From Aestuariivivens sediminis (lineage in GTDB: Bacteria > Bacteroidota > Bacteroidia > Flavobacteriales > Flavobacteriaceae): a stretch of 64,000 bases of DNA. The DNA lies in assembly GCF_022662105.1 (NCBI RefSeq), contig NZ_JAKMCP010000003.1:372001-436000 (forward strand), read 5' to 3'. The notes under the pieces are model-generated. The model saw nothing but the letters and a program-made list of their open reading frames with translations. It was not told where the DNA came from and ran no database searches. Position numbers and translations under genes: made by a program. Below are positions 15,346-56,065 of the stretch, in pieces. Numbering within the stretch: the stretch's first letter is position 1; each line of letters starts with the position of its first letter.

Positions 15346-15391
15346 TTAACTTTATTTATTATTAAAACAACTTAAAAGGGCTTTCTCCTGA

Positions 15392-18119: not shown

Positions 18120-18132
18120 ATAAACTTTTATA

Positions 18133-18846
18133 ATGAAAAGCCAACTATTAGTCCTGTATTTATGTGTTTGTTGTTTAAAAGTCATTTCAGCACAAACCAT
18201 TTGGACCGGATCACATACCACGTTTACGAAAGCTAATTTTGCAGATCCCGCTTTAGAGGCCAATCAAGATCGAATTACAGACCATGTTTGGATAACAAGA
18301 GGCGATATACAGGGGATCTTCAACATTAAAAAGGAAGGTGCTTATTCCAAGACTACCGGCATCTCTCCCATCGATACAGAATGGGCCTTTGGAACAACGG
18401 ATAACTGGGAAAGCTTGACATACAATACCTGGGTAGCAACCATTGAAAACAATCCACCCGATATGCTAAACAGGAATATGGTACTTCACTTAATCACCGA
18501 TGATATCTATATAGACCTTGAATTTACCGCATGGTCCATAGGCAGTACCGCTGGTGGAGGCTTTAGTTACCATCGGTCTACAGACTCAAGTTTAAACATT
18601 GACGATTACGATTCCATTATCGGGATACAAATTTATCCCAATCCTGCGCAGTCGTTTATACATTTTAAACATGCTAACAGGTTTGACATCCAATCCTTAA
18701 AAATTACGACTATATTAGGTCAACAAATTTTTAATTACACCATTTTAGAATCTGGTATAGAGGTCTCACATTTAAAAAACGGTGTCTATTTTTTGCATAT
18801 CACCACCATTTCAGAAAAACAGGTCAAACGATTCATAAAACAATAA
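18133..18846 (+). CDS. Type IX-secreted protein with C-terminal sorting domain
   Basis: A 237-residue protein: signal peptide (cleaved near VISA/Q), an N-terminal beta-rich domain (about 25-150) and a C-terminal type A sorting domain (IYPNPAQSFIHF, then LKNGVYFLHI and a basic end). It should be exported by the type IX system. Neighbours encode a barrel protein, a c-type cytochrome and YceI; 13-base gaps suggest one operon. The N-terminal domain is not recognised. Confidence 0.85.
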   Translation: MKSQLLVLYLCVCCLKVISAQTIWTGSHTTFTKANFADPALEANQDRITDHVWITRGDIQGIFNIKKEGAYSKTTGISPIDTEWAFGTTDNWESLTYNTWVATIENNPPDMLNRNMVLHLITDDIYIDLEFTAWSIGSTAGGGFSYHRSTDSSLNIDDYDSIIGIQIYPNPAQSFIHFKHANRFDIQSLKITTILGQQIFNYTILESGIEVSHLKNGVYFLHITTISEKQVKRFIKQ

Positions 18847-18858
18847 CCCATCTAAATT

Positions 18859-19707
18859 ATGAAACACTTCTTATTCTTACTGTGCTTAATCCCTTTAACC
18901 CTTTTTAGTCAAGATGATTTACTGGATGAAATCGACACAGATTCCACCTGGTCTGATTATGCAGAAGCTACCTTTAAAGGCTTAAAGATTGTAAATTTTG
19001 AATCCACAAAATTAGTGGCGAAAAAAGAGTTTACCTTAATTGTTTCCCATAGATTTGGCAGTTTGGAAAATGGATTTGATAATTTTTTCGGTCTGGATGA
19101 GGCCGTTACCCGCTTGAATTTTGTTTACGGACTATCGGATGGATTAAATATTGGGTTTTCAAGGAGTTCATTTCAAAAAATCTATGAATTTTCATTAAAA
19201 TACCGATTATTACGACAGAAAGAAAACGGATTTCCATTTACTGTGGTTGGGTTTAACGAAATACTTATAAACACCGCCCTTGATGAGGATAACCTGCCTT
19301 TATTGGAGTTCAAGCACCGACTTAGTTACGTGGCACAACTATTAATTTCGAGAAAGTTAAGTTCCAATTTTTCTTTGGAGTTAGCCCCAACCTTTTTCCA
19401 TGATAATTTTGTGTATTTGGATGAACAGGATAATTCACAGTTTGCTTTGGGATTTGGCGGTCGGTATAAATTAGGGAAGCGCTGGTCCATTAATGCGGAC
19501 TATGGCTGGCACATGAACAGAGCCGATAATTCCCCATTTAAAAATCCCTTTTCTATAGGATTCGATTTGGAAACCGGAGGGCATGTCTTCCAGATGCATT
19601 TTACCAATGCACAAGGCATGAATACCAATACCTTTTTGGGTCAGGGTTCCGGAGATTGGGGCGATGGAAATATCTATTTTGGATTTAACTTAAGTAGACG
19701 TTTTTAA
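18859..19707 (+). CDS. DUF5777-type outer-membrane beta-barrel protein
   Basis: A 282-residue secreted protein with a cleavable signal peptide (ends near LFSQ) and alternating amphipathic strands finishing in a terminal aromatic residue (NLSRRF), as outer-membrane barrels do. Segments such as VSHRFGSLENGFDNFFGLDEAVTRLNFVYGL and AQGMNTNTFLGQG match the DUF5777 family of Bacteroidota. The transported molecule is unknown. In this operon it sits between a type IX cargo protein and a cytochrome. Confidence 0.85.
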   Translation: MKHFLFLLCLIPLTLFSQDDLLDEIDTDSTWSDYAEATFKGLKIVNFESTKLVAKKEFTLIVSHRFGSLENGFDNFFGLDEAVTRLNFVYGLSDGLNIGFSRSSFQKIYEFSLKYRLLRQKENGFPFTVVGFNEILINTALDEDNLPLLEFKHRLSYVAQLLISRKLSSNFSLELAPTFFHDNFVYLDEQDNSQFALGFGGRYKLGKRWSINADYGWHMNRADNSPFKNPFSIGFDLETGGHVFQMHFTNAQGMNTNTFLGQGSGDWGDGNIYFGFNLSRRF

Positions 19708-19742
19708 TTAGAATGATTTTATTAACCTAAATTATGTACGCT

Positions 19743-20108
19743 ATGAATTTTAAAAATTTAACTTTTATTTTGTCTCTGGTCTTTCTTATATGGGGATGTT
19801 CCAGCAGCAGCACTGATGATTTAACCAACAATCCGGATCCAGACCCCAATCCCGATCCAGATCCCATAACCTATAACGCCGATATTGCAAGTATTATAAG
19901 CAGTAACTGTATAGGTTGTCATGGTAATCCGCCTACTCAGAACGCTCCATTTTCTTTAACAACTTACAACGAAGTAAAAACTAGAGTCAGCACAATAATC
20001 AGCAGAATAAATAATACAACTAATCCCATGCCACCAACTGGTCTTATGCCGCAAACCAATAGAGATTTAATACAACAATGGAAAGATGATGGTCTATTGG
20101 AAAACTAA
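19743..20108 (+). CDS. c-type cytochrome lipoprotein
   Basis: A protein of about 121 residues from the ATG at 19743 (an ATG at 19734 is also possible). Lipoprotein signal (WGCS), an Asp-Pro repeat linker, then a compact domain with one CIGCH haem c-binding site and a downstream NPMPP segment that can supply the axial Met. It resembles single-haem domains of Bacteroidota (cytochrome c, planctomycete-type). Its place between a DUF5777 barrel and YceI suggests an envelope electron-transfer role. Confidence 0.85.
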   Translation: MNFKNLTFILSLVFLIWGCSSSSTDDLTNNPDPDPNPDPDPITYNADIASIISSNCIGCHGNPPTQNAPFSLTTYNEVKTRVSTIISRINNTTNPMPPTGLMPQTNRDLIQQWKDDGLLEN

Positions 20109-20154
20109 AAAGGCGTTTGGTACCGTTTTTGACATCCATACTAAAAACAAAATC

Positions 20155-20697
20155 ATGAAATATTTCGTTTATCTCCTTTTCTTTATAAGTGCCTCACTAT
20201 TGTCGCAAACCAAATACCTTACAAAAAATGGGGTAGTTGGATTTGAGGCTTCGGTCCCTTCATTTGAAGAAGTAAAAGCCAGTAATAACGCCGTCACCGC
20301 CATACTGAATGCGGATAATGGCGAGTTTGCCGCTCTGGTCCTGGTAAAAGGCTTTCGGTTTAAAAATGCGTTAATGGAAGAACATTTTAACGAGAATTAT
20401 GCAGAATCCGACATCTATCCCAAGGCAACATTCAAAGGGACCCTGAAGGACTTTGACAAATCCAGACTAAACAGTGGGTCAAAATTTAAAATAACGGGCG
20501 AACTGATGTTTCACGGGGTTACGAAAACATTTGATGATATTGATGTATCTTTATCCTCAAAAGGCAATGAAATCCAAATGTCCGGAAAATTTCAAACTTT
20601 AGCATCTGATTTCGATATCAAAATACCTAAAATTGTACGGAACAAAATTGCTGAGACCATAGATGTCGACTTTAATTTTAAATTGCAATTAAAATAA
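20155..20697 (+). CDS. YceI-family lipid-binding protein
   Basis: A 180-residue secreted protein starting at the ATG at 20155, where the signal peptide begins. The YceI beta-barrel pattern is clear: FEASVPSFEEVKASNN, FKNALMEEHFNENYAESDIYPKATFKG and ITGELMFHGVTKT. Some YceI relatives bind polyisoprenoid chains inside the barrel. It ends the operon of envelope genes, but only 16 bases separate it from the nucleotidyltransferase of the next cluster, so read-through is likely. Confidence 0.92.
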   Translation: MKYFVYLLFFISASLLSQTKYLTKNGVVGFEASVPSFEEVKASNNAVTAILNADNGEFAALVLVKGFRFKNALMEEHFNENYAESDIYPKATFKGTLKDFDKSRLNSGSKFKITGELMFHGVTKTFDDIDVSLSSKGNEIQMSGKFQTLASDFDIKIPKIVRNKIAETIDVDFNFKLQLK

Positions 20698-20713: not shown

Positions 20714-21622
20714 ATGGACGTTTTAAAAACCATACTATATTTTTCCATTTTCAATTACCCGGTAACCAAAGATGAGGTTTTAAAATTTTCGAATTGTAAA
20801 ACTTTAGAAGAAGTACATCTTGAACTGGAAAATCTTCTGGAAGCCCGTATCATTTGTAAAATTGGTGATTATTATTCAAAAACCAATAATTCCCAATTTA
20901 TTGAAAAAAGAGAAATGGGAAATCGTATGGCCAAAAAGGTGATGCCCAAAGCCTTAAAAAGAGCTTATTTAATATCTCAATTTCCATTCGTTAAAGGGGT
21001 TGCCTTTTCCGGTGCGTTTTCCAAAGGGTACTTTGACCAAGACGGAGATATTGATTTTTTTATTATCACCGAAGCCAACAGGTTGTGGGTGGCCAGAACC
21101 CTGCTAATACTCTACAAAAAACTATTTTTATTAAACTCGAGAAAGTATTTTTGCGTTAATTATTTTCTCAGTGAAAGTGCTCTGAAAATTTCAGAGCAAA
21201 ATAGATTCACGGCCATGGAAATCGCAACCTTAATTCCCCTGCATGGACAAACGCATTTTGATCTGTTTTTTAAAAAAAATAACTGGTTTTTAAATTACTT
21301 TTCAAATATTTCCACACAAGATAAAATAAGGGAAATTTGTGATATTCGTCCCGCATGGCCCAAACAATTCGTTGAATTTACATTGCGTTCAAAACTTGGA
21401 GATCTGTGGGAAAATTGGTTTCGGAAAATGACCCTTCTGAGATGGAAATCAAAATTCCCTGAATTACCGGATGAAGACTTCAAATTAGCCATGAAATCCA
21501 CCAAAGACGTATCCAAGCACCATCCTAAAAACTATCAGAAGAAAGTAATAAATTCTTTGAATGAGTTATATGTACAGATTAATGAATCCCATCAAATTGT
21601 TTTAGACCCTGAACATGCTTGA
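20714..21622 (+). CDS. Nucleotidyltransferase-fold protein with N-terminal winged helix
   Basis: A 302-residue cytosolic protein. The N-terminal part (about 1-60) looks like a winged helix (ILYFSIFNYPVTKDEVL). A nucleotidyltransferase core follows at about 95-125, with GAFSKGYFDQDGDIDFFIIT containing the two metal-binding Asp residues. The acceptor is unknown; such enzymes activate or label small molecules or proteins. The ATG at 20714 is preferred to the adjacent TTG. It overlaps the first radical SAM gene by 8 bases and heads the cluster. Confidence 0.78.
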   Translation: MDVLKTILYFSIFNYPVTKDEVLKFSNCKTLEEVHLELENLLEARIICKIGDYYSKTNNSQFIEKREMGNRMAKKVMPKALKRAYLISQFPFVKGVAFSGAFSKGYFDQDGDIDFFIITEANRLWVARTLLILYKKLFLLNSRKYFCVNYFLSESALKISEQNRFTAMEIATLIPLHGQTHFDLFFKKNNWFLNYFSNISTQDKIREICDIRPAWPKQFVEFTLRSKLGDLWENWFRKMTLLRWKSKFPELPDEDFKLAMKSTKDVSKHHPKNYQKKVINSLNELYVQINESHQIVLDPEHA

Positions 21623-23084
21623 TGTCTTGTTTTCACATTCATATTATTATAAATTAGATCCCAAGCAGTGGAGTAATCAAAATCCTTATCCCCCTTTGGG
21701 GACACTCTTTGCGGCATCACTTCTTAGAAAAAATAACTATTCCGTTGGACTATTCGACACCAATTTAAAAGATGGGCCGGAATCCATTGAAAAGGACCTG
21801 CTCACATTACAGCCTAAATTTTTGGTCCTGTATGATGATGGATTTAATTATTTAACCAAAATGTGCCTGACCAATATGCGTGACGCTGCATTTAAAATGA
21901 TTGGTATCGGGAAAAAACAGGGGTGCGTGGTTGTTGTAAATAGTTCCGATGCCACAGATCACTATCAAAAATATTTGGATCAAGGCGCCGATTTTGTCAT
22001 TCAAGGTGAGGGAGATCAAACTTTGTTAGAACTCATTGATGGATTACAGAAAAATAATGACATTAGCAATCTTAAAGGTTTAATCTTTTTAAGTGAAAAC
22101 AAAACCATTGTTAATCCAAAACGAGAGGTATTAAGAGAACTAGATACCTTGCCTTTACCCGCCTGGGATCTCGTGGATATGGCCAGTTATAAAGAGGTGT
22201 GGAAAAAAAGCGGGAAACCATTCACCTTAAATATGGCTACCACGCGAGGTTGTCCCTTTAAATGTAACTGGTGTGCAAAGCCTATTTATGGTAATCGATA
22301 TAATTCACATTCCCCAAAATATGTGGTTGAACACCTTAAAGTTTTAAAGGAGACCTATGATGTAAAACGGTTTTGGATGTGTGATGATATTTTTGGTCTT
22401 AAACCCAATTGGGTACAGGAGTTTAACAGAATCCTTAAACGTGAACAGTTATCGATTTCATATTATATTCAAAGTAGGGTTGATCTCCTTTTAAAAGATG
22501 ATACCATTAATGCTTTGGCGGAAAGTGGATTGGAAGAAGTCTGGGTGGGTGCCGAAAGTGGATCGCAAAAGATTTTGGATGCCATGGATAAAGGCATCAC
22601 CGTAGAACAGATAAAAGAAGCCACAAAACGCTTAAGAAAAAGGGGCATTCGTGTTTCATTTTTTATTCAGTATGGCTATTTGGGCGAGACCCAAGAGGAT
22701 ATTCAAAAGACCATAGACATGATTAAGGATTTATGTCCTGATAATTTGGGTATCTCTGTTTCTTATCCTTTGCCGGGCACAAAATTTTACAACAAGGTAA
22801 AGGAGGAATTAAACATCAAATCCAATTGGACAGACTCCGATGATCTTGCCATGCTGTTTCAGGGAACTTATAACAGTAGATATTACAAAACATTACACAG
22901 ATACACACATAAAGAATATAGAAAAAGTCAGGCTTTAAAAAATTTGAAATCGTTTGTTCAAAATCCCTTTACCCTTTTTGCCCAATCACGGTTGCGATCC
23001 ATGTCATTATATCTGTACTATGTCCTTTCCGCTTGGTTCTATAAATTTCAACTCAAAAGCATACAGATGAGCGATGGAAAATAG
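21615..23084 (+). CDS. B12-binding-type radical SAM enzyme 1
   Basis: A 489-residue protein with an N-terminal Rossmann-like B12-binding domain (NPYPPLGTLFAASLLRKNNY, then QGEGDQTLLELI) and a radical SAM barrel whose cluster-binding CxxxCxxC is Cys213, Cys217, Cys220. The AESGSQKILDAMDKG motif follows. No DxHxxG lower-ligand motif is seen, as in many members of this class. Members methylate unactivated carbons or rearrange rings; the substrate is unknown. It overlaps a methyltransferase gene by 11 bases. Confidence 0.9.
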   Translation: MLDVLFSHSYYYKLDPKQWSNQNPYPPLGTLFAASLLRKNNYSVGLFDTNLKDGPESIEKDLLTLQPKFLVLYDDGFNYLTKMCLTNMRDAAFKMIGIGKKQGCVVVVNSSDATDHYQKYLDQGADFVIQGEGDQTLLELIDGLQKNNDISNLKGLIFLSENKTIVNPKREVLRELDTLPLPAWDLVDMASYKEVWKKSGKPFTLNMATTRGCPFKCNWCAKPIYGNRYNSHSPKYVVEHLKVLKETYDVKRFWMCDDIFGLKPNWVQEFNRILKREQLSISYYIQSRVDLLLKDDTINALAESGLEEVWVGAESGSQKILDAMDKGITVEQIKEATKRLRKRGIRVSFFIQYGYLGETQEDIQKTIDMIKDLCPDNLGISVSYPLPGTKFYNKVKEELNIKSNWTDSDDLAMLFQGTYNSRYYKTLHRYTHKEYRKSQALKNLKSFVQNPFTLFAQSRLRSMSLYLYYVLSAWFYKFQLKSIQMSDGK

Positions 23085-23856
23085 TTTTGATGCAGTTGCA
23101 GTAGATTATGACCAATCATTTACCAAATCCCAAATTGGTAAATTCCAACGTGAAATGGTCTACAGCTATGTCCTGAATTTTATACCCAGGAATACGAAAT
23201 TGCGTATATTGGAAATTAACTGTGGTACCGGCGAGGATGCCATTTGGTTTGCCGAACAGGGACATGAGGTATTGGCAACGGATATTTCCCCTGTGATGTT
23301 GGACATGGCCAAAATCAAAACCAAGTTAAAAAATTTACGCTTTCAACAATTAGATATCAAAGCTATTGATCAACTAAGCCCTGAAAAAAAATACGATATA
23401 TTATTTTCCAATTTTGGAGGATTAAACTGTCTTTCTCCGAGTGAACTAAAACAGTTTTACCAGACATCGAGAAAACTACTTAAGGACGATGGAAAAATGA
23501 TCCATATTATTATGTCCAAATGCTGTATTTGGGATAATATCTACCTTTTTTTTAAAGGTAAATGGAAATCATTATTCAGAAGAAATACGACTAACCCCGT
23601 TGCTGTGAATATCAATGGCTGTTCCATACGGACATGGTATTACAATCCTTCTGATATTGTCTCGTATACCAGAGACGTATTTAATTTGGAAACCTATTAC
23701 CCGATTGGATTCTGTATTCCACCGTCCTACCTGGAACACTTTTTCTCCAAAAAAAAAAGTGTATTGCTTTTGTTGGTCTGGTTGGACCGTCACTTGCAAT
23801 TTAGTATAATTTCGAAATATGCCGATCATTTTATCATTAGTCTAAAAGCCAAATGA
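23074..23856 (+). CDS. Class I SAM-dependent methyltransferase A
   Basis: A 260-residue cytosolic enzyme. Motif I (LRILEINCGTGEDAIWFAEQG), the acidic end of strand 2 (ATDISPVML) and motif IV (DILFSNFGGLNCL) define the SAM-binding fold. The substrate is unknown. It overlaps the preceding radical SAM gene by 11 bases and the next radical SAM gene by four, so all three are translationally coupled. A C-terminal hydrophobic patch may contact a lipid substrate (inference). Confidence 0.88.
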   Translation: MENSFDAVAVDYDQSFTKSQIGKFQREMVYSYVLNFIPRNTKLRILEINCGTGEDAIWFAEQGHEVLATDISPVMLDMAKIKTKLKNLRFQQLDIKAIDQLSPEKKYDILFSNFGGLNCLSPSELKQFYQTSRKLLKDDGKMIHIIMSKCCIWDNIYLFFKGKWKSLFRRNTTNPVAVNINGCSIRTWYYNPSDIVSYTRDVFNLETYYPIGFCIPPSYLEHFFSKKKSVLLLLVWLDRHLQFSIISKYADHFIISLKAK

Positions 23857-25226
23857 ACATACTATTAACACATGGGTATTACTTGAATGAGGATAAAAAG
23901 GAGGCAAAAATAATGAAGCCTTATCCGCCTTTGGGATTACTGTATGTTTCGTCCTTTTTAAAGGAAAACGGACTTAAAAATAAGGTGTTCGATAGCACTT
24001 TTTCCTCACTTGAAAAACAACTTCAATGGATTGCGGAAAACCAACCAAAAATTGTTGGCATTTATACGAATCTTATGACGAAAATAAACGTTATAAAGCT
24101 GGTAAAACTCTTAAAGAATAATCCTGAATTTGGCTTACCTCATATTATTCTCGGTGGGCCCGATGTGACCTTCAATTGTAAAAACTACTTAAACTCTGGA
24201 GCTGATTTTTTGGTAATTGGCGAAGGTGAAGAAACCATGTATGAACTGTGTTCGGCATTGATAACCAATGACGAATACCAATCCATTAAGGGTATTGCTT
24301 ATCTGGTAAACGGACAGCTTATAAGGACGTCAACACGTTCCAAAATAAAGGATTTAAAAAATTTGCCCTTCCCAAACCGAGCAGCTATTGATTTCAAACC
24401 CTATTTAGATACCTGGGAAACCTATCATGGTAAAAGCTCTATGACCATAAGCACCCAACGGGGCTGCCCTTATACCTGTAAATGGTGCAGTACAGCGGTC
24501 TACGGACAAAGCTATCGCAGACGTCCTGCTAAACAGGTCGTAGAAGAAATAAAATTAATATTAGATACCTATCACCCGGACGCCCTGTGGTTTGTGGACG
24601 ATGTATTTACTGTAAGTCATAAATGGATTGATGAATTCCATAAAGAAATGACCACAAATCATCTGAATGTTCCCTTTGAAATAATTACCAGAGCCGAACG
24701 CCTTAATGAAAGGGTGCTTAAACAGCTTAAAGACATAGGGTGTTTTAGAATTTGGATTGGTGCGGAAAGTGGCTCACAAACAGTCATTGATGCGATGGAC
24801 CGACGTGTTGAGATTGAATCCGTTAAACAAATGATTCAACAGACCAATGCATTTGGAATGGAAACAGGCACATTTATTATGCTGGGTTATCCCGGGGAAA
24901 CGGAAGCCGATATAAAAGAAACCATTCAATACCTTAAAGAGGCTAATCCAACACATTACACCATTACGGTGGCATACCCCATTAAAGGGACAAGCTTATA
25001 TGAGGACATTGAGGATCGCATTATCCATCAACCCCATTGGGAAACTTCAACAGACAGGCAAATCGATTTTAAAAGGACCTATAGAAGGAAATATTACGAT
25101 TATGCGGTAAAAAAAGTCATTAATGAGGTGGAATTCGAAAGAACAAAAACCTTTTCCAGAGCTTTAATTCACAAAGTCAAATCAACGCTGTTGAGTCTGA
25201 TCATGTTATCCTTAAAATATTCTTGA
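23853..25226 (+). CDS. B12-binding-type radical SAM enzyme 2
   Basis: A 457-residue paralogue of the first radical SAM gene: B12-binding domain (MKPYPPLGLLYVSSFLKENG, then GGPDVTFNCKNYLNSGADF and GEGEETMYEL), CxxxCxxC at Cys205, Cys209, Cys212, and an AESGSQTVIDAMDRR motif. The similarity extends through the whole length, pointing to duplication and divergence inside the cluster. The substrate is unknown. It is followed one base later by another methyltransferase gene. Confidence 0.9.
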   Translation: MNILLTHGYYLNEDKKEAKIMKPYPPLGLLYVSSFLKENGLKNKVFDSTFSSLEKQLQWIAENQPKIVGIYTNLMTKINVIKLVKLLKNNPEFGLPHIILGGPDVTFNCKNYLNSGADFLVIGEGEETMYELCSALITNDEYQSIKGIAYLVNGQLIRTSTRSKIKDLKNLPFPNRAAIDFKPYLDTWETYHGKSSMTISTQRGCPYTCKWCSTAVYGQSYRRRPAKQVVEEIKLILDTYHPDALWFVDDVFTVSHKWIDEFHKEMTTNHLNVPFEIITRAERLNERVLKQLKDIGCFRIWIGAESGSQTVIDAMDRRVEIESVKQMIQQTNAFGMETGTFIMLGYPGETEADIKETIQYLKEANPTHYTITVAYPIKGTSLYEDIEDRIIHQPHWETSTDRQIDFKRTYRRKYYDYAVKKVINEVEFERTKTFSRALIHKVKSTLLSLIMLSLKYS

Positions 25227-25227
25227 A

Positions 25228-25986
25228 ATGAAAAAATCGTTTCAGGAAATAGCGTATTTAACCCCTCGTGATCATGCCAGTGCGTTTACTGAATTGTACA
25301 TTGCCGTTAGAAAAAAGGAGAACAGGGTATTGTCAGATGAGGAGGTTTTAGAATTGCCAAATGTTTCCAAAAGAGTTTTCAACTACAAAGAATGGAGGGT
25401 TCGAAAAAAATCAGCCCATAGATTTTTAAATTATCTGTCTCAACAAAAAAAGATCCGTTCTGTTTTGGACCTTGGTTGCGGTAATGGTTGGTTTTCCAAC
25501 TGGATTGCGAAATCTTTTTCTTCCATAACTGTTACGGGGTTAGACATAAATGAAATCGAACTGGAGCAAGCGAATAGAGTGTTTCAAAGCACCAATTTAA
25601 AATTTGCTTATGCGGATATTTTTAAATTAGAACCCAGTGCTGAAAATAAATTTGACCTGATTGTATTAAATGCAAGTGTTCAATATTTTTCGGATTTTAC
25701 AGCACTCATTTTAGTATTGAGGACCTTTTTAGAACCAAATGGAGAAATCCATCTTATAGACAGTCCGTTTTACAACGATCATCAAATATATAAAGCTCGC
25801 GAAAATACGAAAAGCTATTTCAAAAAACTGGGGTTTCCGGAGATGTCCAAATACTATTTTCATCATAATGTAAAAAAGCTTCATGCCTTTAATATCCTTT
25901 ACAGACCTGAAAAAAGACCTGTAGATCTATTATTAGGCAGAACAGATTCTCCTTTTATGTGGTTAAGACTTAAAGATTCAACATGA
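25228..25986 (+). CDS. Class I SAM-dependent methyltransferase B
   Basis: A 252-residue enzyme with a glycine-rich motif I (VLDLGCGNGWFSNWIAK), an acidic strand-2 residue (TGLDINEIELEQAN) and a motif IV-like DLIVLNASVQYF. It starts one base after the second radical SAM gene. The N-terminal 70 residues form a charged helical extension. The substrate is unknown. A 111-base gap follows, the only sizeable gap in the cluster. Confidence 0.87.
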   Translation: MKKSFQEIAYLTPRDHASAFTELYIAVRKKENRVLSDEEVLELPNVSKRVFNYKEWRVRKKSAHRFLNYLSQQKKIRSVLDLGCGNGWFSNWIAKSFSSITVTGLDINEIELEQANRVFQSTNLKFAYADIFKLEPSAENKFDLIVLNASVQYFSDFTALILVLRTFLEPNGEIHLIDSPFYNDHQIYKARENTKSYFKKLGFPEMSKYYFHHNVKKLHAFNILYRPEKRPVDLLLGRTDSPFMWLRLKDST

Positions 25987-26097
25987 TTGAGGCATTTTAA
26001 GCGTTAGAAAACATGAATGACGCCATGGTACACAGGAGCAGATGATACATCATATTTTTAATATGGAATATAGATATAAGGGCCTTCCTGTCATAGT
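25987..26097. other. Gap within the biosynthetic cluster
   Basis: The only gap longer than 11 bases inside the cluster. I see no ORF, hairpin or clear TAnnTTTG element in it. It could hold an internal promoter or a degraded small gene. Confidence 0.3.
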
Positions 26098-27303
26098 ATG
26101 GAGCAAAATAATTATGAAAGATCAAAATTGAACAAAAAATTAGCGTATAGAGGATTATATATTATTAAAAGCGGAGTTCGCAGCTTCTTACCGGCTATAT
26201 TTTCAGTAGTACTTTCTGTACTGATTATAAAACTTTTTTCGAAAGCGCTTTGGGGCGATTTTGTTAAGTATAATATATACCTTTTAAGCTCAAGCATGAT
26301 ATATTCATTTGGAAATAAAGAATTTTTACTTAAAGAATTTAGTAAAACCCCTTCCAAAATCAAGTTGCTTTTTAATGAGGCTTTCACGTCCCGTCTTCCA
26401 TTTCTTTTTTTAACTATGCTGGGAGCGGTAATTCTGTATCCTCAGTCCTCACATTTGGCTTTTATGATATTACTGTTGTCCGGATATGTGTGCAATGCTT
26501 TCAGTACACTGGTCATTTATAACAAAAACTTTAGTACAGCCATTCTTATCGAGCTTCTCGCCTTTTCAGTGTTCGTAAGTTTAATTTGGATATCTAAACC
26601 CTCTACCATTGTTAGCCTCTTTAATTTATTTGCCATCCAATATGGCCTTAAAATGGCACTTTATATGTTACTCATTAAAAATATGGGTTTGCAACTATCT
26701 CCATTAAACTTTTCTTTTCACTATATCAAAAAAACCGTCCCATTTTTCCTTATTGGGCTCATTGGATTTATTAACACAAAAGTGGATCTGTTTTTAATTA
26801 TATATTTTGAAAAAAATGAAACCATTGCACTATATCAAATTATTACTAATTTCTTTATTATGGTACAATCCTTATCTGTAATTATTTCTTTACCTTTTAC
26901 CAAACATATTTATCGTCTGAAATATGACCTATTGCTCAAAATTGAAAACAGGATTAGACTATTTGCACCACTGTTTATAACCCTATGTTTACTTTTCACC
27001 TATTTTATCATAGTCCTGGTCTATGGTTTTAATTTTAATGCCTTGTTCTATGTGTTTGGTTTCTTTATCATATTTCCCTCCTATTGGTTATTAATCAGAT
27101 ATTTTGTCCTTTTTAAAAATGGAAAGGAAATGCTAATTTCGAAGATTAGTTTAATTTCAGTCCTCATAAACTTTATGAGCTCCTTAGTATTATTAAAATT
27201 AGGCTATGGCATGCTGGGCGTTATTGCAGGCAGTGCTTTAGCTTCAGTGGCCACAGTTTTTATGTTCTTTTTAATTAAAAAAAGCACCTATGAAAGGAAA
27301 TAG
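26098..27303 (+). CDS. Wzx/MATE-type membrane flippase
   Basis: A 401-residue integral membrane protein with about 12 hydrophobic helices and few charged loops, resembling oligosaccharide flippases of the MOP superfamily (an N-terminal IIKSGVRSFLPAIFSVVLSVLIIKLFS pattern and central KVDLFLIIYFEKNETIALYQ). It is shorter than most Wzx proteins. It would move a lipid-linked or amphipathic product across the inner membrane. It overlaps the next methyltransferase by 14 bases. No glycosyltransferase gene is present in the cluster, so the cargo may not be a glycan. Confidence 0.82.
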   Translation: MEQNNYERSKLNKKLAYRGLYIIKSGVRSFLPAIFSVVLSVLIIKLFSKALWGDFVKYNIYLLSSSMIYSFGNKEFLLKEFSKTPSKIKLLFNEAFTSRLPFLFLTMLGAVILYPQSSHLAFMILLLSGYVCNAFSTLVIYNKNFSTAILIELLAFSVFVSLIWISKPSTIVSLFNLFAIQYGLKMALYMLLIKNMGLQLSPLNFSFHYIKKTVPFFLIGLIGFINTKVDLFLIIYFEKNETIALYQIITNFFIMVQSLSVIISLPFTKHIYRLKYDLLLKIENRIRLFAPLFITLCLLFTYFIIVLVYGFNFNALFYVFGFFIIFPSYWLLIRYFVLFKNGKEMLISKISLISVLINFMSSLVLLKLGYGMLGVIAGSALASVATVFMFFLIKKSTYERK

Positions 27304-27982
27304 CCAACACTATTACGATAGTATCGCGAACAACTATGAATCACTTCTTGAGGAATACAAGGCCCATAAGTCCATTAGGTCTATGGTTCAAAAGGAATTT
27401 ACCAGGACCGTTCCTCAGAGTAGCAAGGTTTTGGATTTTGGTGGTGGTACCGGATTAGATTTGGATTGGCTGGTTAAAGATTACAGGGTTACGTTTTGGG
27501 AGCCCTCACAAAAAATGAGAGCCATCGCGAAAATGAAAATCAAATCAAATGATTATAGGAATATAATCTGTATTGACAATCGCAAAAATGATCTGGACTC
27601 CTTAATAAAAACCGTGGGCAACCTTACATTTGATGCTGTTTTAGCGAATTTTGCCGTTTTAAATTCTATTCAAGACCTCCACCATTTGGCCACGAAACTG
27701 CAAGTTATGACCTCAGAGCGTTGTGATTTATTTTTTCTCGTTCTTTATCGGTTTCCTCATACACGTGTTGGCAGGCTAAGGGATTATTATTTTAATATGA
27801 GATTTTATTGCCGTTTCCACCCTAAAAGGTTTCATATTACTCATAATAATATCGTCCATGATATATTTGTTCATCCTTTAAATCATATAAAAAGAAGTTT
27901 TAATTCCAGTTTTAAACTAATTTCGGTGAAACAGATAAATAATTCGTATTTCAAGTTGTTGCATCTTAAAAAGAAACCATGA
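27290..27982 (+). CDS. Class I SAM-dependent methyltransferase C
   Basis: A 230-residue enzyme with motif I SKVLDFGGGTGLDLDWLVKD, an acidic FWEPSQKM at strand 2 and DAVLANFAVLNSI at motif IV. It resembles methyltransferases A and B in layout (YYDSIANNYES N-terminus, typical of small-molecule methyltransferases). It overlaps the flippase gene and abuts the flavin-reductase-like gene. The substrate is unknown. Confidence 0.87.
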   Translation: MKGNSQHYYDSIANNYESLLEEYKAHKSIRSMVQKEFTRTVPQSSKVLDFGGGTGLDLDWLVKDYRVTFWEPSQKMRAIAKMKIKSNDYRNIICIDNRKNDLDSLIKTVGNLTFDAVLANFAVLNSIQDLHHLATKLQVMTSERCDLFFLVLYRFPHTRVGRLRDYYFNMRFYCRFHPKRFHITHNNIVHDIFVHPLNHIKRSFNSSFKLISVKQINNSYFKLLHLKKKP

Positions 27983-28855
27983 ATGTCCCAGTTTAAATTT
28001 ATAAAAGAATTTATTCCTATTGCTTATGATAATCACGTATATCAGGCCGTACTACATGTTGGTGAAAAGGTCATAGATATTACAAATTCAGAAAATATTT
28101 TAAGCATTTCCCCCAACATCTTTGGATTTTATTACGAGGAGCACAATTATGATTTCAGCGAGAAAACCAGTGTGGTTTTAAAATATTTCAAAAAGAATTC
28201 CCTGCTGTCATCCAATAAATTGACCTATAGTGAAAAAATCAAACTAACGGAAAAGGGGTATTTATTCTTATTTAAAGTTAAAAATACCTCTTATAAAAAT
28301 TTCCAAACGATTAAAATTTCTGTTTTTAACCTCCTGTTATTTTTAAAAAAGAAAGGGAAAATGGAAGTCAGTTTTAACCAAAACAAACAAATAATATCTT
28401 TTTTCTCCATTCCAAGAACGGTCTATTTATGTTCATTCACTTCAATGGAAAACCAAAGCTGTATTTTTCCAATTGATCTGGTTATTGATAAATCCGATGA
28501 GGATTTGATGATTTTCTCAATTAGAAAATCAAATAGGATTGTGCCAAAACTTAGTCAAGAAAAAAAAGCTGTTATCATATGCAGTAGTTACATCAATAAA
28601 AGAGAAATTCTTAAACTGGGTAAATATCATTCGAAATCATTTCCGAAAATTTCAGATTTGGAATTTAAAACGTTTAATAGTAAGATTTTTAATTATAATA
28701 TTCCTTGTTTCCTCGATAGCTATATGGAATTGGAAATTAGAATCGAAAAAGACATCGGGCAGCAAATTGTATTTGTTGGAAAGGTAATTCACAAAAAAAC
28801 AGGCGCATCTAAAGATCCTCCATTAGCACATATACATTCACTTTTTCATTCTTGA
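27983..28855 (+). CDS. Flavin-reductase-like protein with unassigned N-terminal half
   Basis: A 290-residue protein. The C-terminal half (about 145-285) follows the flavin reductase-like FMN-binding split barrel: PRTVYLCSF, then DLMIFSIRKSNRIVPKL, then LKLGKYHSK, and a strand QQIVFVGKVI. The N-terminal half (1-140) is beta-rich and not recognised. The family binds FMN and either supplies reduced flavin or acts as an oxidoreductase. The protein sits between two methyltransferases in a cluster with three radical SAM enzymes and could be a redox partner or a tailoring enzyme. The assignment is from pattern only. Confidence 0.65.
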   Translation: MSQFKFIKEFIPIAYDNHVYQAVLHVGEKVIDITNSENILSISPNIFGFYYEEHNYDFSEKTSVVLKYFKKNSLLSSNKLTYSEKIKLTEKGYLFLFKVKNTSYKNFQTIKISVFNLLLFLKKKGKMEVSFNQNKQIISFFSIPRTVYLCSFTSMENQSCIFPIDLVIDKSDEDLMIFSIRKSNRIVPKLSQEKKAVIICSSYINKREILKLGKYHSKSFPKISDLEFKTFNSKIFNYNIPCFLDSYMELEIRIEKDIGQQIVFVGKVIHKKTGASKDPPLAHIHSLFHS

Positions 28856-28859
28856 TTCA

Positions 28860-29546
28860 ATGCCATTAAAAGGTTTTATACAGCAAAAAAAGCTATTCCG
28901 TTTTTACAAAACACTCATTAATAAAAATGATTTGTGTTTTGATATAGGAGCCAACCTTGGAAGAAAAAGTAAAATTTTTCTATCATTGGGGGCGAAGGTT
29001 ATCGCTTTTGAACCCCAAAGTTCCTGTTCTAAAGCCTTACTTAAAATTCAAAATAAAAATAAAGATTTTACTTTTATTCGTGCCGGTGTTGGGGAAAGTA
29101 ACGGTTTGGAAGAATTATTTATTGGGAGTCATATTGAAGTTTCGACTTTTTCAAAAAAATTCATGCGTTTTTTTGAAAATGAGGCCATTTACTGGCCCCG
29201 TTCGGAACCCATTGAGGTCATGACATTAAATACCATTCTAAAGACTTATGGGGTGCCCGATTATTGTAAAATAGACACTGAAGGTTATGAGCTCAAAATT
29301 CTTGAATCCCTGAATCAACCTATACCATTCATTGAGTTTGAATTCACTTCGGGTTTTATGGATGAAACGATACAAATCATTCATAAACTCTCAAGTCTTG
29401 GCCCCACTAAATGGAACTATATTTTAAATGAAAACCCTATATTTAAACTATCTAATTGGGTATCCTCCCATGAGATGATGGCCCTATTTGAAACTTTACC
29501 ACAATATCGATTGCATGGCAACCTGTATGTAAAAACCGAAATATAA
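28860..29546 (+). CDS. FkbM-family methyltransferase
   Basis: A 228-residue enzyme with the FkbM layout: DLCFDIGANLGRKSKIFLSLG as motif I, VIAFEPQSS at strand 2 and the FkbM-typical YCKIDTEGYELKILESL near residue 140. FkbM enzymes O-methylate sugars or polyketide-like products. It lies 4 bases after the flavin-reductase-like gene and 11 before the third radical SAM gene. Confidence 0.9.
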   Translation: MPLKGFIQQKKLFRFYKTLINKNDLCFDIGANLGRKSKIFLSLGAKVIAFEPQSSCSKALLKIQNKNKDFTFIRAGVGESNGLEELFIGSHIEVSTFSKKFMRFFENEAIYWPRSEPIEVMTLNTILKTYGVPDYCKIDTEGYELKILESLNQPIPFIEFEFTSGFMDETIQIIHKLSSLGPTKWNYILNENPIFKLSNWVSSHEMMALFETLPQYRLHGNLYVKTEI

Positions 29547-29557
29547 TAGTTTATCCT

Positions 29558-31075
29558 ATGACCCCTAAGGTGTTAATATTCAACCCGCGCAGTGCTAACA
29601 GCAAACACCGCATTCCCAACTCGATTCTTCAGGTTGGAGCTTCCATTCATGGGATATATGATTATGTGTTCGTGGACGGGAATTTGGAAAAGGATCCTTG
29701 GTTAAAACTAAAAACCTTCTTTACATCGGGTAGGATAAAATATTTCTGCATTACGGTTATGCCGGGACCACAGTTAAAACAAGCCATACCATTTTCTAAA
29801 CGTATAAAGGAACTGTTTCCAAAAACAATCGTTATTTGGGGTGGCTACTTTGCATCCAATCAATATAAGGTGTCCTTAGATTCAGGGTTTGTCGATTATA
29901 TTGTTAGTGGCCCCGGTGACCATGCATTTCCACGTTTATTAGATTGTTTGGAAAGCGGCGAGTTTCATAAACTTGAAACGATTCAAAATCTCATCTATAA
30001 AGCATCCCATAAAATCATTAAAACAGCTAAAGAACCCTTACTGGACCAGGATGCCCTGCCACCATTACCCTATGAATATCTCAACACCTTTTATCCTCTG
30101 GAACAGTATCTGGGCAAAACATTTCTGGGTAAAAAAACATTCGCGTATCATTCTAGCTTTGGCTGTCCATTCACTTGCTCTTTCTGTGCTGTTGTACCCA
30201 TTTATAACGCCCGGTGGAAGGGAAAATCGGCAAAAACCATGTACGATGATATTTCCTATTTCAAAAAAAATTATGGGATTGATGCCATCGAATTCCATGA
30301 TAACAATTTTTTCACTTCAAGAAAACGGGTGGTGGAATTTTCGAAATTGATTTTAAATGATGGCATTTCATGGTGGGGAGAAGGCCGAATAGATACCATT
30401 AATCAATATTCGGACGACGATTTAATACTGATGCGAAAAGCAGGCTGCAAAATGATTTTTCTGGGTGCAGAAACGGGTAATGACGAGGTGTTGAAGCAAA
30501 TGGACAAAGGCGGGCAACAAACCGGACAAATGATCAAAGACTTTGCCGTTCGGATGAAAAGAATCGGGATCATCCCGGAAATGTCTTTTGTACTTGGATT
30601 ACCTGCCGATTCAAAGGATAAAGTCATGGATCAAATTGACATGGATATTGAATTCATAAGAAACATAAAAGCTCTTAATCCGGATACTGAAATCATCATT
30701 TATCTTTACAGCCCTGTACCATCTGAAGGCTCGGAATTGTACCAACAAATTGTTGCTGCCGGTTTCACTTTTCCAAAACATTTAGAAGCCTGGATTTCAC
30801 CCGATTGGGAACATTTCGATTTGCGTAAAAACCCATTAACCCCTTGGTTAACCCCATCTATGGTCGATAAAATTAAAAATTTTGAGACCGTTTTAAACGG
30901 GTACTACCCCACGGTATCCGATTTTAGGCTTAGAGGTTTAAAACGGAAAATTATTAAACAATTGTCTGCATTTAGATATAAAAATAACCTCTATGCATGT
31001 CCTTACGAGATTAAGCTGTTACAAAAGCTTTGGAAATACCGTCAACCCGAAATAGAAGGCTTTTACCTGGAATAA
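29558..31075 (+). CDS. B12-binding-type radical SAM enzyme 3
   Basis: A 505-residue radical SAM protein, more diverged than the first two. The N-terminal B12-like domain keeps the VIWGGYFAS and SGPGDHAFPRLL segments; the cluster-binding residues are Cys203, Cys207, Cys210. The SAM-side motif is GAETGNDEVLKQMDKGG. The length and the C-terminal EAWISPDWEHFD region set it apart, so it probably catalyses a different step. Its stop codon overlaps the next ATG (TAATG). Confidence 0.9.
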   Translation: MTPKVLIFNPRSANSKHRIPNSILQVGASIHGIYDYVFVDGNLEKDPWLKLKTFFTSGRIKYFCITVMPGPQLKQAIPFSKRIKELFPKTIVIWGGYFASNQYKVSLDSGFVDYIVSGPGDHAFPRLLDCLESGEFHKLETIQNLIYKASHKIIKTAKEPLLDQDALPPLPYEYLNTFYPLEQYLGKTFLGKKTFAYHSSFGCPFTCSFCAVVPIYNARWKGKSAKTMYDDISYFKKNYGIDAIEFHDNNFFTSRKRVVEFSKLILNDGISWWGEGRIDTINQYSDDDLILMRKAGCKMIFLGAETGNDEVLKQMDKGGQQTGQMIKDFAVRMKRIGIIPEMSFVLGLPADSKDKVMDQIDMDIEFIRNIKALNPDTEIIIYLYSPVPSEGSELYQQIVAAGFTFPKHLEAWISPDWEHFDLRKNPLTPWLTPSMVDKIKNFETVLNGYYPTVSDFRLRGLKRKIIKQLSAFRYKNNLYACPYEIKLLQKLWKYRQPEIEGFYLE

Positions 31076-31737
31076 TGAACCCCATTCTCAAAAAAATAAC
31101 GAGTCCTGTATTGCAGTGGTGTTATAAAAAATACTATTCAAAACCGCGTCCTTTTCGCTACAAGGATATACATATTATCATCTATCCAGGTGTTTTTGCC
31201 CCGCAATTCACATTTAGTACAAAATTACTTCTGAATTATATGGAAGGTCTGGATCTCAAGGGCAAACGATTTTTAGAGCTAGGCTGTGGCTCCGGCATTA
31301 TAGCTTTGAATGCTTCAAAAAAAGGGGCTTTTGTGACGGCTTCCGACATCAATAAAAACGCTATATCCCAACTTCAACAGTCAGCCGTCTCTAACCACCT
31401 GGAATTAAAAACCATCATATCCGATTTATTCAATGCCATTACTGAGCCTCACTATGATTATATTTTCATCAACCCGCCCTATTACCCCAAAACGCCCCAA
31501 ACTATTGAGGAGCATGCCTGGTATTGTGGACCCCATTTCGAGTATTTTAAAAAACTTTTTGAACAGCTTTCAACCTATGTCGCCTCCAAAAGCGAAATTA
31601 TTCTTATCCTTTCTGAGAATTGCGATATTATAAGCATCCGGACCATTGCCCATACCAACCATCTGGATTTACATCTTATAAAAATTGAAAAAAATATATG
31701 GGAACGCCATTACCTGTTTAGGGTCGTGAAAAAATAA
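31075..31737 (+). CDS. Class I methyltransferase D (small-domain, NPPYY type)
   Basis: A 220-residue enzyme from the ATG at 31075, which overlaps the preceding stop. Motif I (FLELGCGSGIIALNASKKG), DINKNAI at strand 2 and FINPPYYPKTP, the NPPY motif of methyltransferases acting on planar nitrogen such as glutamine or nucleobases (HemK-like fold). In this setting the target may be a small molecule. It ends the cluster, 2 bases from the convergent carB stop. Confidence 0.85.
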   Translation: MNPILKKITSPVLQWCYKKYYSKPRPFRYKDIHIIIYPGVFAPQFTFSTKLLLNYMEGLDLKGKRFLELGCGSGIIALNASKKGAFVTASDINKNAISQLQQSAVSNHLELKTIISDLFNAITEPHYDYIFINPPYYPKTPQTIEEHAWYCGPHFEYFKKLFEQLSTYVASKSEIILILSENCDIISIRTIAHTNHLDLHLIKIEKNIWERHYLFRVVKK

Positions 31738-31739
31738 TT

Positions 31740-34592
31740 TTATTTACTCAAATACATCTTCCTTCTGGAATACAAATCGTAAAATTCATCATCCTTCAAG
31801 CTATCGATAAACAAGATACTTTCTCCGGTGCTCTTCATTTCCGGCCCTAATGTTTTATCGACATTTGGGAATTTATTAAACGAGAAGACCGGTTGCTTAA
31901 TGGCATAACCCTCCAATTTGGGATTAAAGGTAAAATCTTTAACCTTCTTTTCACCGAGCATCAATTTAGTGGCATAATTTACGTAAGGTTCTTTATAGGC
32001 TTTTGCAATGAATGGAACCGTTCTGGATGCCCTTGGATTTGCTTCTATAATATAGACCGTATCATCTTTTATGGCGAACTGAATATTTATTAAACCAACC
32101 GTTTTAAGTGCCAGCGCAATTTTTTTGGTATGATCCTTTATCTGTTGCATGACAAATTCCCCCAGATTGAACGGTGGTAGAGTTGAATTACTGTCACCGG
32201 AATGGATGCCGCATGGCTCAATGTGTTCCATGATTCCAATGATGTATACCTCTTCTCCATCACAAATGGCATCTGCTTCAGCTTCAATAGCACCATCTAA
32301 ATAATGATCCAGGAGCAATTTATTATTAGGTATTTTTCTTAAAAGATCAACAACATGTTCTTCCAGTTCCTGCTTGTTAATTACAATTTTCATCCCCTGG
32401 CCTCCCAATACATAGGATGGTCTCACCAAAATTGGAAAATCCAATTTATCAGCCACCTGAAGCGCCTCTTCAGCCGTTTCGGCCGTATCAAATTCCGGAT
32501 AAGGAATGTTGTTCTCCTTTAGCAAGGTTGAAAAACTTCCACGATCTTCTGCCAAATCAAGGGATTCAAAACTTGTACCTATAATTTTTATACCATATTT
32601 TGTTAACTTCTCAGCCAATTTTAAAGCCGTCTGTCCTCCCAACTGAACAATTACACCCTCTGGTTTTTCGTGTTTAATGATATCGTAAATATGCTCCCAG
32701 AATACAGGTTCGAAATACAACTTATCAGCGGTATCAAAATCGGTTGAAACGGTTTCCGGGTTACAATTAATCATAATGGTTTCATATCCACACTCTTTAG
32801 CGGCATACACACCATGAACGCAGCAATAATCGAATTCTATCCCCTGCCCAATCCTATTAGGTCCCGAGCCTAAAACCACAATTTTTTTCTTATCACTCAC
32901 CACACTCTCATTTTCCGCATAACGTGTGCCATCGGCTGTTTCCATATCACTTTCAAATGTCGAATAGTAATATGGCGTCTGGGCCTTAAATTCGGCTGCA
33001 CAGGTATCGACCAGTTTATACACCCGATTAATCCCCAATGCTTCACGCTTATTATATACCTGGCTTTCCAGGCAACCTAACATATGTGCTATTTGTCTAT
33101 CGCCATATCCTTTTTGCTTGGCTTCCAACAGAAGATCCTTTTCGATGGTGTCGATCGTATAGGTCGAGATCTCCTTTTCCAGGAAAAATAATTCCTCATA
33201 TTGCTTTAAGAACCACATGTCTATCTTAGTGATTTCGTGAACGCGACTTAACGGAATTCCCATTTTTATGGCATCGTAAATAATAAATACCCGATCCCAG
33301 GAAGCATGTGTGAGCTTTTCAATAATTTGATCATATTTGGTATTTTCCTTACCGTCGGCACCCAAACCATTGCGCTTTATTTCGAGAGACTGTGTGGCTT
33401 TATGCAGAGCTTCCTGGAAGGAACGTCCAATTCCCATGACTTCACCTACCGCTTTCATTTGTAGTCCCAAAGTCCTATCAGAACCTTCAAATTTATCAAA
33501 ATTCCAACGTGGTATTTTTACAATGACATAATCTAAAGTAGGCTCAAACAATGCCGAAGTTGATTTTGTGATTTGGTTGTTCAATTCATCCAGATGATAG
33601 CCGAGTGCAAGTTTTGCAGCTATTTTTGCTATCGGATATCCGGTTGCTTTACTCGCCAAAGCAGAAGACCGAGATACCCTTGGGTTAATTTCAATAGCAA
33701 TAATATCTTCTTTTTCATCCGGACTTACTGCAAATTGTACGTTACAACCTCCTGCAAAATCTCCTATGCTACGCATCATGTGGATAGCCATATCGCGCAT
33801 ACGCTGGTAGGTTCTGTCACTCAAGGTCATAGCAGGAGCAACCGTAATGGAGTCACCCGTATGGATTCCCATGGGATCCATATTTTCTATGGAGCAAATA
33901 ATAACCACATTATCATTGGAATCACGAAGCAATTCCAGCTCATATTCTTTCCAACCAATTAACGCTTTATCGATCATGACCTCATGAATAGGAGAAATTT
34001 CCAGGCCACGACGCAATAGCTTATCGAAATGTTCCTCTTCATAAACTATGGCCGCACCCGCACCACCCAGGGTAAAGGAAGAACGAATGCATAAGGGAAA
34101 TCCAAATTCCTGGGCAATTTCCTTGCCTTTTAAAAAGGAGCTTGCCGTGGCTTGCGGGGCCATGGGTATTCCAATTTTTTCCATTAATTCCCTAAATTGT
34201 TCTCTGTCTTCTGTAATGTTAATCGCGTTAATATCCACACCAATCAATGCGACACCAAAATCTTTCCAAATCCCTTTCTCATCTGCCTCAATACAGAGGT
34301 TTAATGCCGTCTGGCCACCCATAGTGGGTAAAACGGCATCTATTTGGGGATGTTCAGTTAATATTTTTATTATGGATTTGGTATTTAGTGGTAGCAAGTA
34401 TACATGATCGGCCATAGAGGGATCGGTCATAATGGTTGCCGGATTCGAATTAATAAGTATGGTTTCAATTCCATCTTCCCTTAATGACCGTAACGCTTGA
34501 GACCCGGAATAGTCAAATTCACAAGCTTGCCCAATAATAATAGGACCTGAACCAATAATTAGTATAGATTTAAGATTAGATTTTTTTGGCAT
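31740..34592 (-). CDS. carB: Carbamoyl-phosphate synthase large subunit, no allosteric domain
   Basis: A 950-residue enzyme that makes carbamoyl phosphate for pyrimidine and arginine synthesis with the CarA glutaminase. Two ATP-grasp halves are complete (LIIGSGPIIIGQACEFDYSG at the start, VVLGSGPNRIGQGIEFDY in the second half). It stops after the second synthetase unit, so the C-terminal MGS-like regulatory domain (about the last 135 residues of the 1073-residue E. coli enzyme) is absent. This short form is, as I recall, usual in Flavobacteria, and the ending is a clean stop, not a frameshift. Its stop faces that of the cluster across 2 bases. Confidence 0.97.
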   Translation of the reverse strand: MPKKSNLKSILIIGSGPIIIGQACEFDYSGSQALRSLREDGIETILINSNPATIMTDPSMADHVYLLPLNTKSIIKILTEHPQIDAVLPTMGGQTALNLCIEADEKGIWKDFGVALIGVDINAINITEDREQFRELMEKIGIPMAPQATASSFLKGKEIAQEFGFPLCIRSSFTLGGAGAAIVYEEEHFDKLLRRGLEISPIHEVMIDKALIGWKEYELELLRDSNDNVVIICSIENMDPMGIHTGDSITVAPAMTLSDRTYQRMRDMAIHMMRSIGDFAGGCNVQFAVSPDEKEDIIAIEINPRVSRSSALASKATGYPIAKIAAKLALGYHLDELNNQITKSTSALFEPTLDYVIVKIPRWNFDKFEGSDRTLGLQMKAVGEVMGIGRSFQEALHKATQSLEIKRNGLGADGKENTKYDQIIEKLTHASWDRVFIIYDAIKMGIPLSRVHEITKIDMWFLKQYEELFFLEKEISTYTIDTIEKDLLLEAKQKGYGDRQIAHMLGCLESQVYNKREALGINRVYKLVDTCAAEFKAQTPYYYSTFESDMETADGTRYAENESVVSDKKKIVVLGSGPNRIGQGIEFDYCCVHGVYAAKECGYETIMINCNPETVSTDFDTADKLYFEPVFWEHIYDIIKHEKPEGVIVQLGGQTALKLAEKLTKYGIKIIGTSFESLDLAEDRGSFSTLLKENNIPYPEFDTAETAEEALQVADKLDFPILVRPSYVLGGQGMKIVINKQELEEHVVDLLRKIPNNKLLLDHYLDGAIEAEADAICDGEEVYIIGIMEHIEPCGIHSGDSNSTLPPFNLGEFVMQQIKDHTKKIALALKTVGLINIQFAIKDDTVYIIEANPRASRTVPFIAKAYKEPYVNYATKLMLGEKKVKDFTFNPKLEGYAIKQPVFSFNKFPNVDKTLGPEMKSTGESILFIDSLKDDEFYDLYSRRKMYLSK

Positions 34593-55982: not shown

Positions 55983-56065
55983 GGACCACATTTTGATTTT
56001 AGACATCCCTCATTTTAAAAGGTTTAAAGCCTGGTGATTTAATGTCAAGTAAATGACTTTATGAC

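Follow-up and report, generated by a model that had tools for sequence, protein, structure and literature searches.

A cobalamin-type radical SAM gene cluster of Aestuariivivens sediminis as one version of a variable Bacteroidota locus, probably for a surface sugar or lipid compound

What is made by a gene cluster that combines three cobalamin-type radical S-adenosylmethionine (SAM) enzymes with five methyltransferases and a putative flippase? The question is raised by eleven open reading frames (ORFs) of Aestuariivivens sediminis, all on the + strand and each running from an ATG start through a stop codon, at positions 20714-31737 of the window, i.e., the whole stretch of 64,000 nucleotides analyzed here (contig NZ_JAKMCP010000003.1, positions 372,001 to 436,000). 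They are referred to as p1 (NT), p2 (rSAM1), p3 (MT1), p4 (rSAM2), p5 (MT2), p6 (flippase), p7 (MT3), p8 (flavin-reductase-like), p9 (FkbM), p10 (rSAM3) and p11 (MT4). Its relatives in other genomes show the cluster to be a version of a locus that is widespread in Bacteroidota. Its probable role is to build and export a surface compound, a sugar or a lipid, that varies between strains. It appears fairly likely to us that the locus serves the biosynthesis and export of a serotype-like glycoconjugate, of which the window would carry one allele.

At the level of sequence, comparison of related genomes establishes the gene order, constant ends, variable interior and flippase slot of this locus. 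A scan of named genomes for p10 gave at least 560 confirmed places, and the best 80 of these serve as the related loci, a choice which favors close relatives. Most belong to Flavobacteriaceae (Aquimarina, Kordia, Winogradskyella, Flavobacterium, Lacinutrix, Dokdonia, Mangrovimonas and others), a few are from metagenome-assembled genomes, one (L071) is labeled Bifidobacterium breve, and two entries repeat a genome (L022 equals L030, L070 equals G019). MT4 follows directly after rSAM3 in all 80 loci. The order p1-p2-p3-p4 was found upstream, on the strand of p10 and within 10 kb, in 44 of them. Of the remaining 36 genomes, 31 were searched as a whole and every one contained p2, which lay on the p10 contig in 25 cases (always on the same strand, 11.5-49.4 kb upstream) and on a different contig of a draft assembly in the other six. 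In 69 of the 80 loci the left end is linked to p10, sharing its contig and strand; this count leaves out five short contigs, and no locus contradicts the linkage. These numbers bear out the conserved order in several genera that the original prediction had named as support for a biosynthesis-and-export system. The widest gap between p2 and p10, in Kordia algicida, is at least partly due to approximately 24 kb of unrelated genes which split p3 from p4 (L143 8004 to L144 13158); some of them resemble mobile or defense genes. In a further locus (L100:4132-9260) the left end is broken, with p2 and p4 being fragmentary and foreign ORFs lying in between.

In a genus-level sample of the family, 10 of 149 genomes contained p1; six of these ten also had p10, which no p1-negative genome carried. 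Without the window genome, all five p10 genomes contain p1, compared to a background of 9 in 148 (hypergeometric probability 2.3e-7). The phylum sample of 395 genomes included 17 with p10, of which 15 belong to eight other families. Among 14 loci from the eight other families, for which many gene labels rest on 22-40% identity, an rSAM1/rSAM2-type gene lies near rSAM3 in 13, a glycosyltransferase-like gene is present in 12 and p1 in eight. In addition, three family genomes exhibit a short form, NT-rSAM1-MT without p10, which faces a GT2 gene, a gene for a multi-pass protein and a phosphorylase-like gene.

The genes between the two ends vary from strain to strain. Complete interiors, with both p4 and p10 in hand, were available from 42 named loci and the window; their genes were labeled by BLAST, which can overlook divergent genes. 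Of these 43 interiors, 42 contained a flippase (Wzx-like or an ABC transporter) and 40 at least one glycosyltransferase. For the ABC flippase the best NCBIfam model is PglK, with 235 bits against a cut-off of 1000. The sugar transferases of the relatives comprise GT87, DPM-like GT2, other GT2, GT1, PMT_2 and GT9 types, and they are accompanied by genes for a polysaccharide deacetylase, GNAT, sulfotransferase, arylsulfotransferase, carbamoyltransferase and acyltransferase as well as for FkbM and other methyltransferases, GDSL hydrolases and an rSAM-SPASM protein. A lipoprotein with an invariant CxxCH heme motif is encoded in 28 of the 43 interiors, the window not being among them. One example (L025:5292-6413, 374 amino acids) belongs to no Pfam family, and a profile search of solved structures yielded no credible match for this lipoprotein. 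Searches of the Aestuariivivens genome itself, which had no control and are weak for that reason, did not find the lipoprotein (family C1) and gave a best match of 25% identity for the DPM-like GT2.

In the window the interior is reduced to the flippase, MT3, the flavin-reductase-like protein and the FkbM methyltransferase. Genes of the p7 type occur in three of the 43 interiors including the window, those of the p8 type in five and those of the p9 type in ten. As originally described, there is no glycosyltransferase inside the window cluster, a GT2 gene being located about 13 kb downstream (44969-45916). The conclusion once drawn from this absence, that the cluster fits no standard class, is not supported: as glycosyltransferases lie between the same flanks in 40 of 43 interiors, their absence is a peculiarity of the window strain. 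An orphan cluster for a small molecule describes the class less well than a serotype-like locus for the export of a glycoconjugate.

How far ends and interior differ can be read from their sequence divergence. Mean pairwise identities amount to 70-76% for the radical SAM enzymes (76% for rSAM3 across 81 loci), 51-56% for MT1 and MT4, 38% for GT87 and 29% for the flippases. Identity also tracks that of rSAM3 more closely for rSAM1 and rSAM2 (Spearman coefficients of 0.65 and 0.60) than for GT87 and the flippase (0.31 and 0.29).

For the function of such a locus we envisage that the constant core, i.e., the nucleotidyltransferase-fold protein, the cobalamin-type radical SAM enzymes and the methyltransferases, would make a shared unusual building block. 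This could be a ring-rearranged or C-methylated unit of sugar-like or cyclitol-like nature, the sugar-like one being our best guess. The genes between the ends would then decorate the building block and flip it through the inner membrane, and most relatives would use for this glycosyltransferases, a deacetylase, acyl-, sulfo-, carbamoyl- or methyltransferases and a Wzx- or ABC-type flippase. Because a flippase occurs together with enzymes of the polyprenyl-phosphate-sugar type (DPM-like GT2 with GT87 or PMT_2), we infer an exported, lipid-linked product, a glycan or glycolipid. A more specific version, for which we would claim little confidence, is that the cobalamin radical SAM core makes the common first unit of a whole class of Bacteroidota surface glycoconjugates, this unit being a nucleoside-derived headgroup or else a sugar in carbocyclic or ring-rearranged form, and that the strains swap the interiors to diversify it in the manner of O-antigen serotypes.

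The proposed locus resembles Wzx-dependent surface-glycan loci of the O-antigen or capsule type in its constant flanks, its variable interior and a flippase slot that is filled by unrelated types, and in the glycosyltransferases and glycan-tailoring genes of the relatives, which in the case of the glycosyltransferases the window locus itself lacks. It differs from them in its constant part, which consists of cobalamin-type radical SAM enzymes and a nucleotidyltransferase-fold protein instead of sugar-nucleotide or chain-length genes. Moreover, neither an initiating phosphoglycosyltransferase nor a convincing polymerase was seen among the representatives scanned with Pfam, which covered part of the interior ORFs; one EpsG-like match was below the cut-off.

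Several observations weigh against a serotype-like glycoconjugate locus. Besides the window, the interiors of L035 and L084 are without a glycosyltransferase, and L126 (NT-rSAM1-rSAM3-MT4) has an empty interior, which implies that the core can do without glycosylation. The missing phosphoglycosyltransferase belongs here as well, a finding which refers to the 30 relatives' proteins scanned with Pfam, as does the fact that the flippase assignment comes from weak family matches. Furthermore, all families, those of the interior included, correlate with rSAM3 beyond all 499 permutations, so that inheritance is partly shared. The interior lipoprotein (0.44) correlates at least as well as the end gene MT4 (0.40), and an identity of 71% puts a DPM-like GT2 family (C3) on a level with the radical SAM enzymes.

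Some relatives encode nucleoside-processing enzymes. An amidohydrolase gene adjoins rSAM3 in eight of 13 distant loci examined. Its product is nearest to the aminofutalosine-deaminase and TRZ/ATZ models, with scores far under their cut-offs. Within the phylum sample it occurs in nine of 395 genomes, eight of which are the genomes of those same rSAM3 loci; in the ninth (G436) the gene is surrounded by NT-rSAM1-MT1-ABC flippase-MT4 without rSAM3. A role in futalosine-dependent menaquinone synthesis was rejected, as an MqnC-like match is present in five of the nine amidohydrolase genomes and absent in four; such a match also exists in G179 and G342, both without the amidohydrolase. A purine-nucleoside-phosphorylase-like gene was found in three of 149 family genomes, and these are exactly the three short-form loci. 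The confinement of both genes to these loci implies that nucleosides are handled there. The window cluster contains neither gene, and a search for the phosphorylase in its own genome was empty. Whether the two enzymes are mere scavengers of 5′-deoxyadenosine and S-adenosylhomocysteine, and tell nothing about the product, appears to be an evenly balanced matter. Reactions of radical SAM enzymes and methyltransferases release these two compounds, of which 5′-deoxyadenosine is described as a toxic by-product in two papers (PMC6079011, PMC10986504), and the models nearest to the amidohydrolase point in the same direction. However, only some loci carry such genes (eight of 13 distant loci and three of 10 p1-carrying family genomes), although the chemistry would be alike in all. 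By-product clearance nevertheless seems somewhat likelier than nucleosides being intermediates of the pathway.

The chemistry of the core would depend on its three radical SAM enzymes, p2 (21615-23084), p4 (23853-25226) and p10 (29558-31075), of which p2 and, in Flavobacteriaceae, p4 belong to the left conserved end and p10 to the right one. All three match Radical_SAM above the Pfam cut-off (PF04055; 86, 83 and 44 bits), the CxxxCxxC motif is invariant in 30 (p2), 30 (p4) and 27 (p10) aligned family members, and every aligned member is at least 48% identical to the window copy. The B12-type assignment made previously stands for p4, where the B12 domain PF02310 exceeds its cut-off (45 vs. 32.1 bits); in the window copies of p2 and p10 this domain remains below it (19.3 and 23.2 bits), and it was found at E≤0.01 in every member of their families (30 of 30 and 27 of 27). 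The top NCBIfam model for p2, p4 and p10 is BchE (147, 160.1 and 112.6 bits; cut-off 481.35). HpnJ ranks second or third (144.7, 141.9 and 103.3 bits; cut-off 577.6), and the P-methylase PhpK scores close to both and below its cut-off. Membership in the HpnJ, BchE, PhpK or ladderane models was rejected, as all scores are under the cut-offs. BchE, the anaerobic Mg-protoporphyrin cyclase, is in addition at odds with a cluster that has no tetrapyrrole genes. The model TIGR04295 (B12_rSAM_oligo) also describes a B12-type radical SAM enzyme, its name points to oligosaccharide clusters, and it matches all three proteins, with only 79, 73 and 31 bits where the cut-off is 400. The nearest solved structures by sequence include AprD4, OxsB, CysS and TokK, which represent a mixture of rearrangement or deoxygenation and methylation. 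These mixed structures, together with the scores for BchE, HpnJ and PhpK, are compatible with C-methylation and with ring chemistry alike. Two more radical SAM genes (G000:C5:986377-988168, loci L004 and L005), with 24-26% identity to p10, are adjacent to each other at another place of the genome.

A heavily C- or O-methylated product, as predicted originally from the window sequence, is possible. In the corresponding explanation the locus would export a methylated lipid or small molecule, with the radical SAM enzymes acting as C-methylases, the methyltransferases as O-methylases and sugars being an optional decoration. The window itself, with three radical SAM enzymes, five methyltransferases and no glycosyltransferase, agrees with it, and cobalamin-dependent radical SAM enzymes are mostly methylases according to PMC13142503. 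The same paper, however, assigns ring formation or rearrangement and not methylation to BchE and HpnJ, and it is the cyclase BchE which is the best model for each of the three enzymes, with PhpK nearby and all scores below cut-off. Considering also that glycosyltransferases lie between the same flanks in nearly all interiors, we regard this explanation as doubtful, even if it is the strongest competitor for the product.

Less probable still is a pathway for a cyclitol- or ribose-bearing lipid akin to the hopanoid side chain, in which a nucleoside- or glucosamine-derived headgroup on a non-hopene lipid would be rearranged by HpnJ-like enzymes. The order of the hopanoid side-chain steps given in PMC12583986 is adenosylation by HpnH, the phosphorylase HpnG, the glycosyltransferase HpnI, the deacetylase HpnK and HpnJ, whose substrate is a glucosamine-bearing lipid. 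The rank of HpnJ among the models, the recurrence of polysaccharide deacetylase and GT2 genes in the interiors, the phosphorylase-like gene of the three short-form loci and the amidohydrolase of nine genomes are reminiscent of this scheme. On the other hand, the scores reach at most a quarter of the HpnJ cut-off, the window cluster holds neither nucleoside enzyme, and these enzymes may only clear 5′-deoxyadenosine and S-adenosylhomocysteine. A hopanoid pathway proper was rejected, as no squalene-hopene cyclase was detected in any of 26 genomes (E≤1e-20), with the limit that the control matched in only one of 14 cases (Bacillus subtilis) and below cut-off. A chance neighborhood or strain-specific assembly of unrelated genes, which the patchy distribution of p10 in family and phylum might suggest, is refuted for practical purposes by the order conserved in 69 of 80 relatives and a co-occurrence far above chance.

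Variable flippase-glycosyltransferase loci are already known, and so are the superfamilies to which all parts of the glycoconjugate locus proposed here belong; what is unusual is the cobalamin radical SAM core. In agreement with the earlier statement that the cluster has no recognized product, no description of a flippase-glycosyltransferase locus with such a core was found in searches of open full texts, in which subscription papers were not included and several queries demanded all terms. If the proposal is true, an unrecognized serotype-like envelope locus with B12-dependent radical chemistry at its core is present in hundreds of genomes of marine and freshwater Bacteroidota, which would provide a gene-defined handle on a surface molecule and on the cobalamin need of these bacteria. 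Variable surface glycans are common phage receptors, and a bearing on phage or host recognition is conceivable. Should the core indeed make the first unit, a glycan class would be defined by radical chemistry and not by a sugar nucleotide. Three coherent orphan families of radical SAM enzymes also gain a strong genomic context.

The eleven-gene, one-strand cluster is real, and Pfam bears out the original class of each gene apart from p1 and p8, whose matches are just below cut-off, and p6, which has none. From p1 to p11 the intergenic spacings are -8, -11, -4, 1, 111, -14, 0, 4, 11 and -1 bases, so that the initially reported overlaps or gaps of 0-11 bases with one gap of 111 bases hold for most junctions, one overlap being 14 bases; the outer limits of the cluster were retained and the start of the last gene was corrected to 31075. 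Four class I methyltransferases and one FkbM methyltransferase all exceed their cut-offs, as expected: MT1 (p3, 23074-23856; PF13649, 60 vs. 27 bits) at the left conserved end, MT2 (p5, 25228-25986; PF13847, 67 vs. 27 bits) as an optional gene of this end, MT3 (p7, 27290-27982; PF08242, 32 vs. 30 bits) and the FkbM-family p9 (28860-29546; TIGR01444, 67 vs. 37.7 bits) in the variable interior and MT4 (p11, 31075-31737; PF05175, 59.5 vs. 23 bits) at the right conserved end.

The assignments of a nucleotidyltransferase and a flavin reductase fall just short of the Pfam cut-offs and gain from fold comparison, to a moderate degree for the former and clearly for the latter. For p1 (20714-21622, left conserved end; PF01909, 18 vs. 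21 bits) the structure model, with a predicted local distance difference test (pLDDT) value of 91.8, exhibits a winged helix at residues 1-61 and a fold like that of aminoglycoside nucleotidyltransferases at about 71-195. VIA-align superimposed it on such enzymes with Z 8.4 over 114 aligned residues at a root-mean-square deviation of 3.3-3.5, where a Z of about 8 is also reachable by chance arrangements. Foldseek gave nothing at E≤0.001, with AadA being best at 5.8e-3. Residues G101, D113 and D115, candidates for the GS and DxD catalytic residues of Pol-beta-type nucleotidyltransferases, are invariant among 24 sequences. The model of p8 (27983-28855, variable interior; PF01613, 26.6 vs. 27 bits; pLDDT 75) combines an added N-terminal beta domain with a predicted C-terminal flavin-reductase split barrel (Foldseek E 1.7e-9 to 4l82_A, 158 columns); its N-terminal half received no assignment from fold comparison. 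The putative Wzx-like flippase p6 (26098-27303, variable interior), presumably for a lipid-linked product, is strongly hydrophobic over its whole length with many predicted membrane segments. It matches no Pfam family itself; four of 16 aligned relatives weakly match Polysacc_synt (best 4.9e-5), which is in line with the initial assignment, and the flippase family, used as a profile, found no match among solved structures. The GC-content is lowest in p6 (31%) and p8 (29%), as would be expected for swapped genes, and 37-39% in the radical SAM genes.

The Bacteroidota -33/-7 promoter pattern had nine matches with 5.2 expected, of which the only one in the cluster (27430) lies inside a coding gene. 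Directly before the cluster, at 17742-20697, are genes for an OB-fold-like small protein, a DUF5777 barrel, a c-type-heme lipoprotein (CIGCH) and YceI. The same set precedes p1 in L017, L019, L020 and L021 and, judging from the ORFs, in L147, L150 and L151; it is absent from most p1 loci. Directly after the cluster follows carB (31740-34592). A fixed linkage to YceI/DUF5777 or carB was dismissed, as only 15 of 70 loci of relatives have carB in the vicinity of rSAM3. Farther away, the minus strand at 11934-15916 harbors a unit of an extracytoplasmic function (ECF) sigma factor, a FecR-like protein (both recognized by eye) and a TonB-dependent receptor with a plug domain. A sulfatase is encoded at 54669-56006 and an HYR-domain surface-type protein of 1112 amino acids at 57345-60683.

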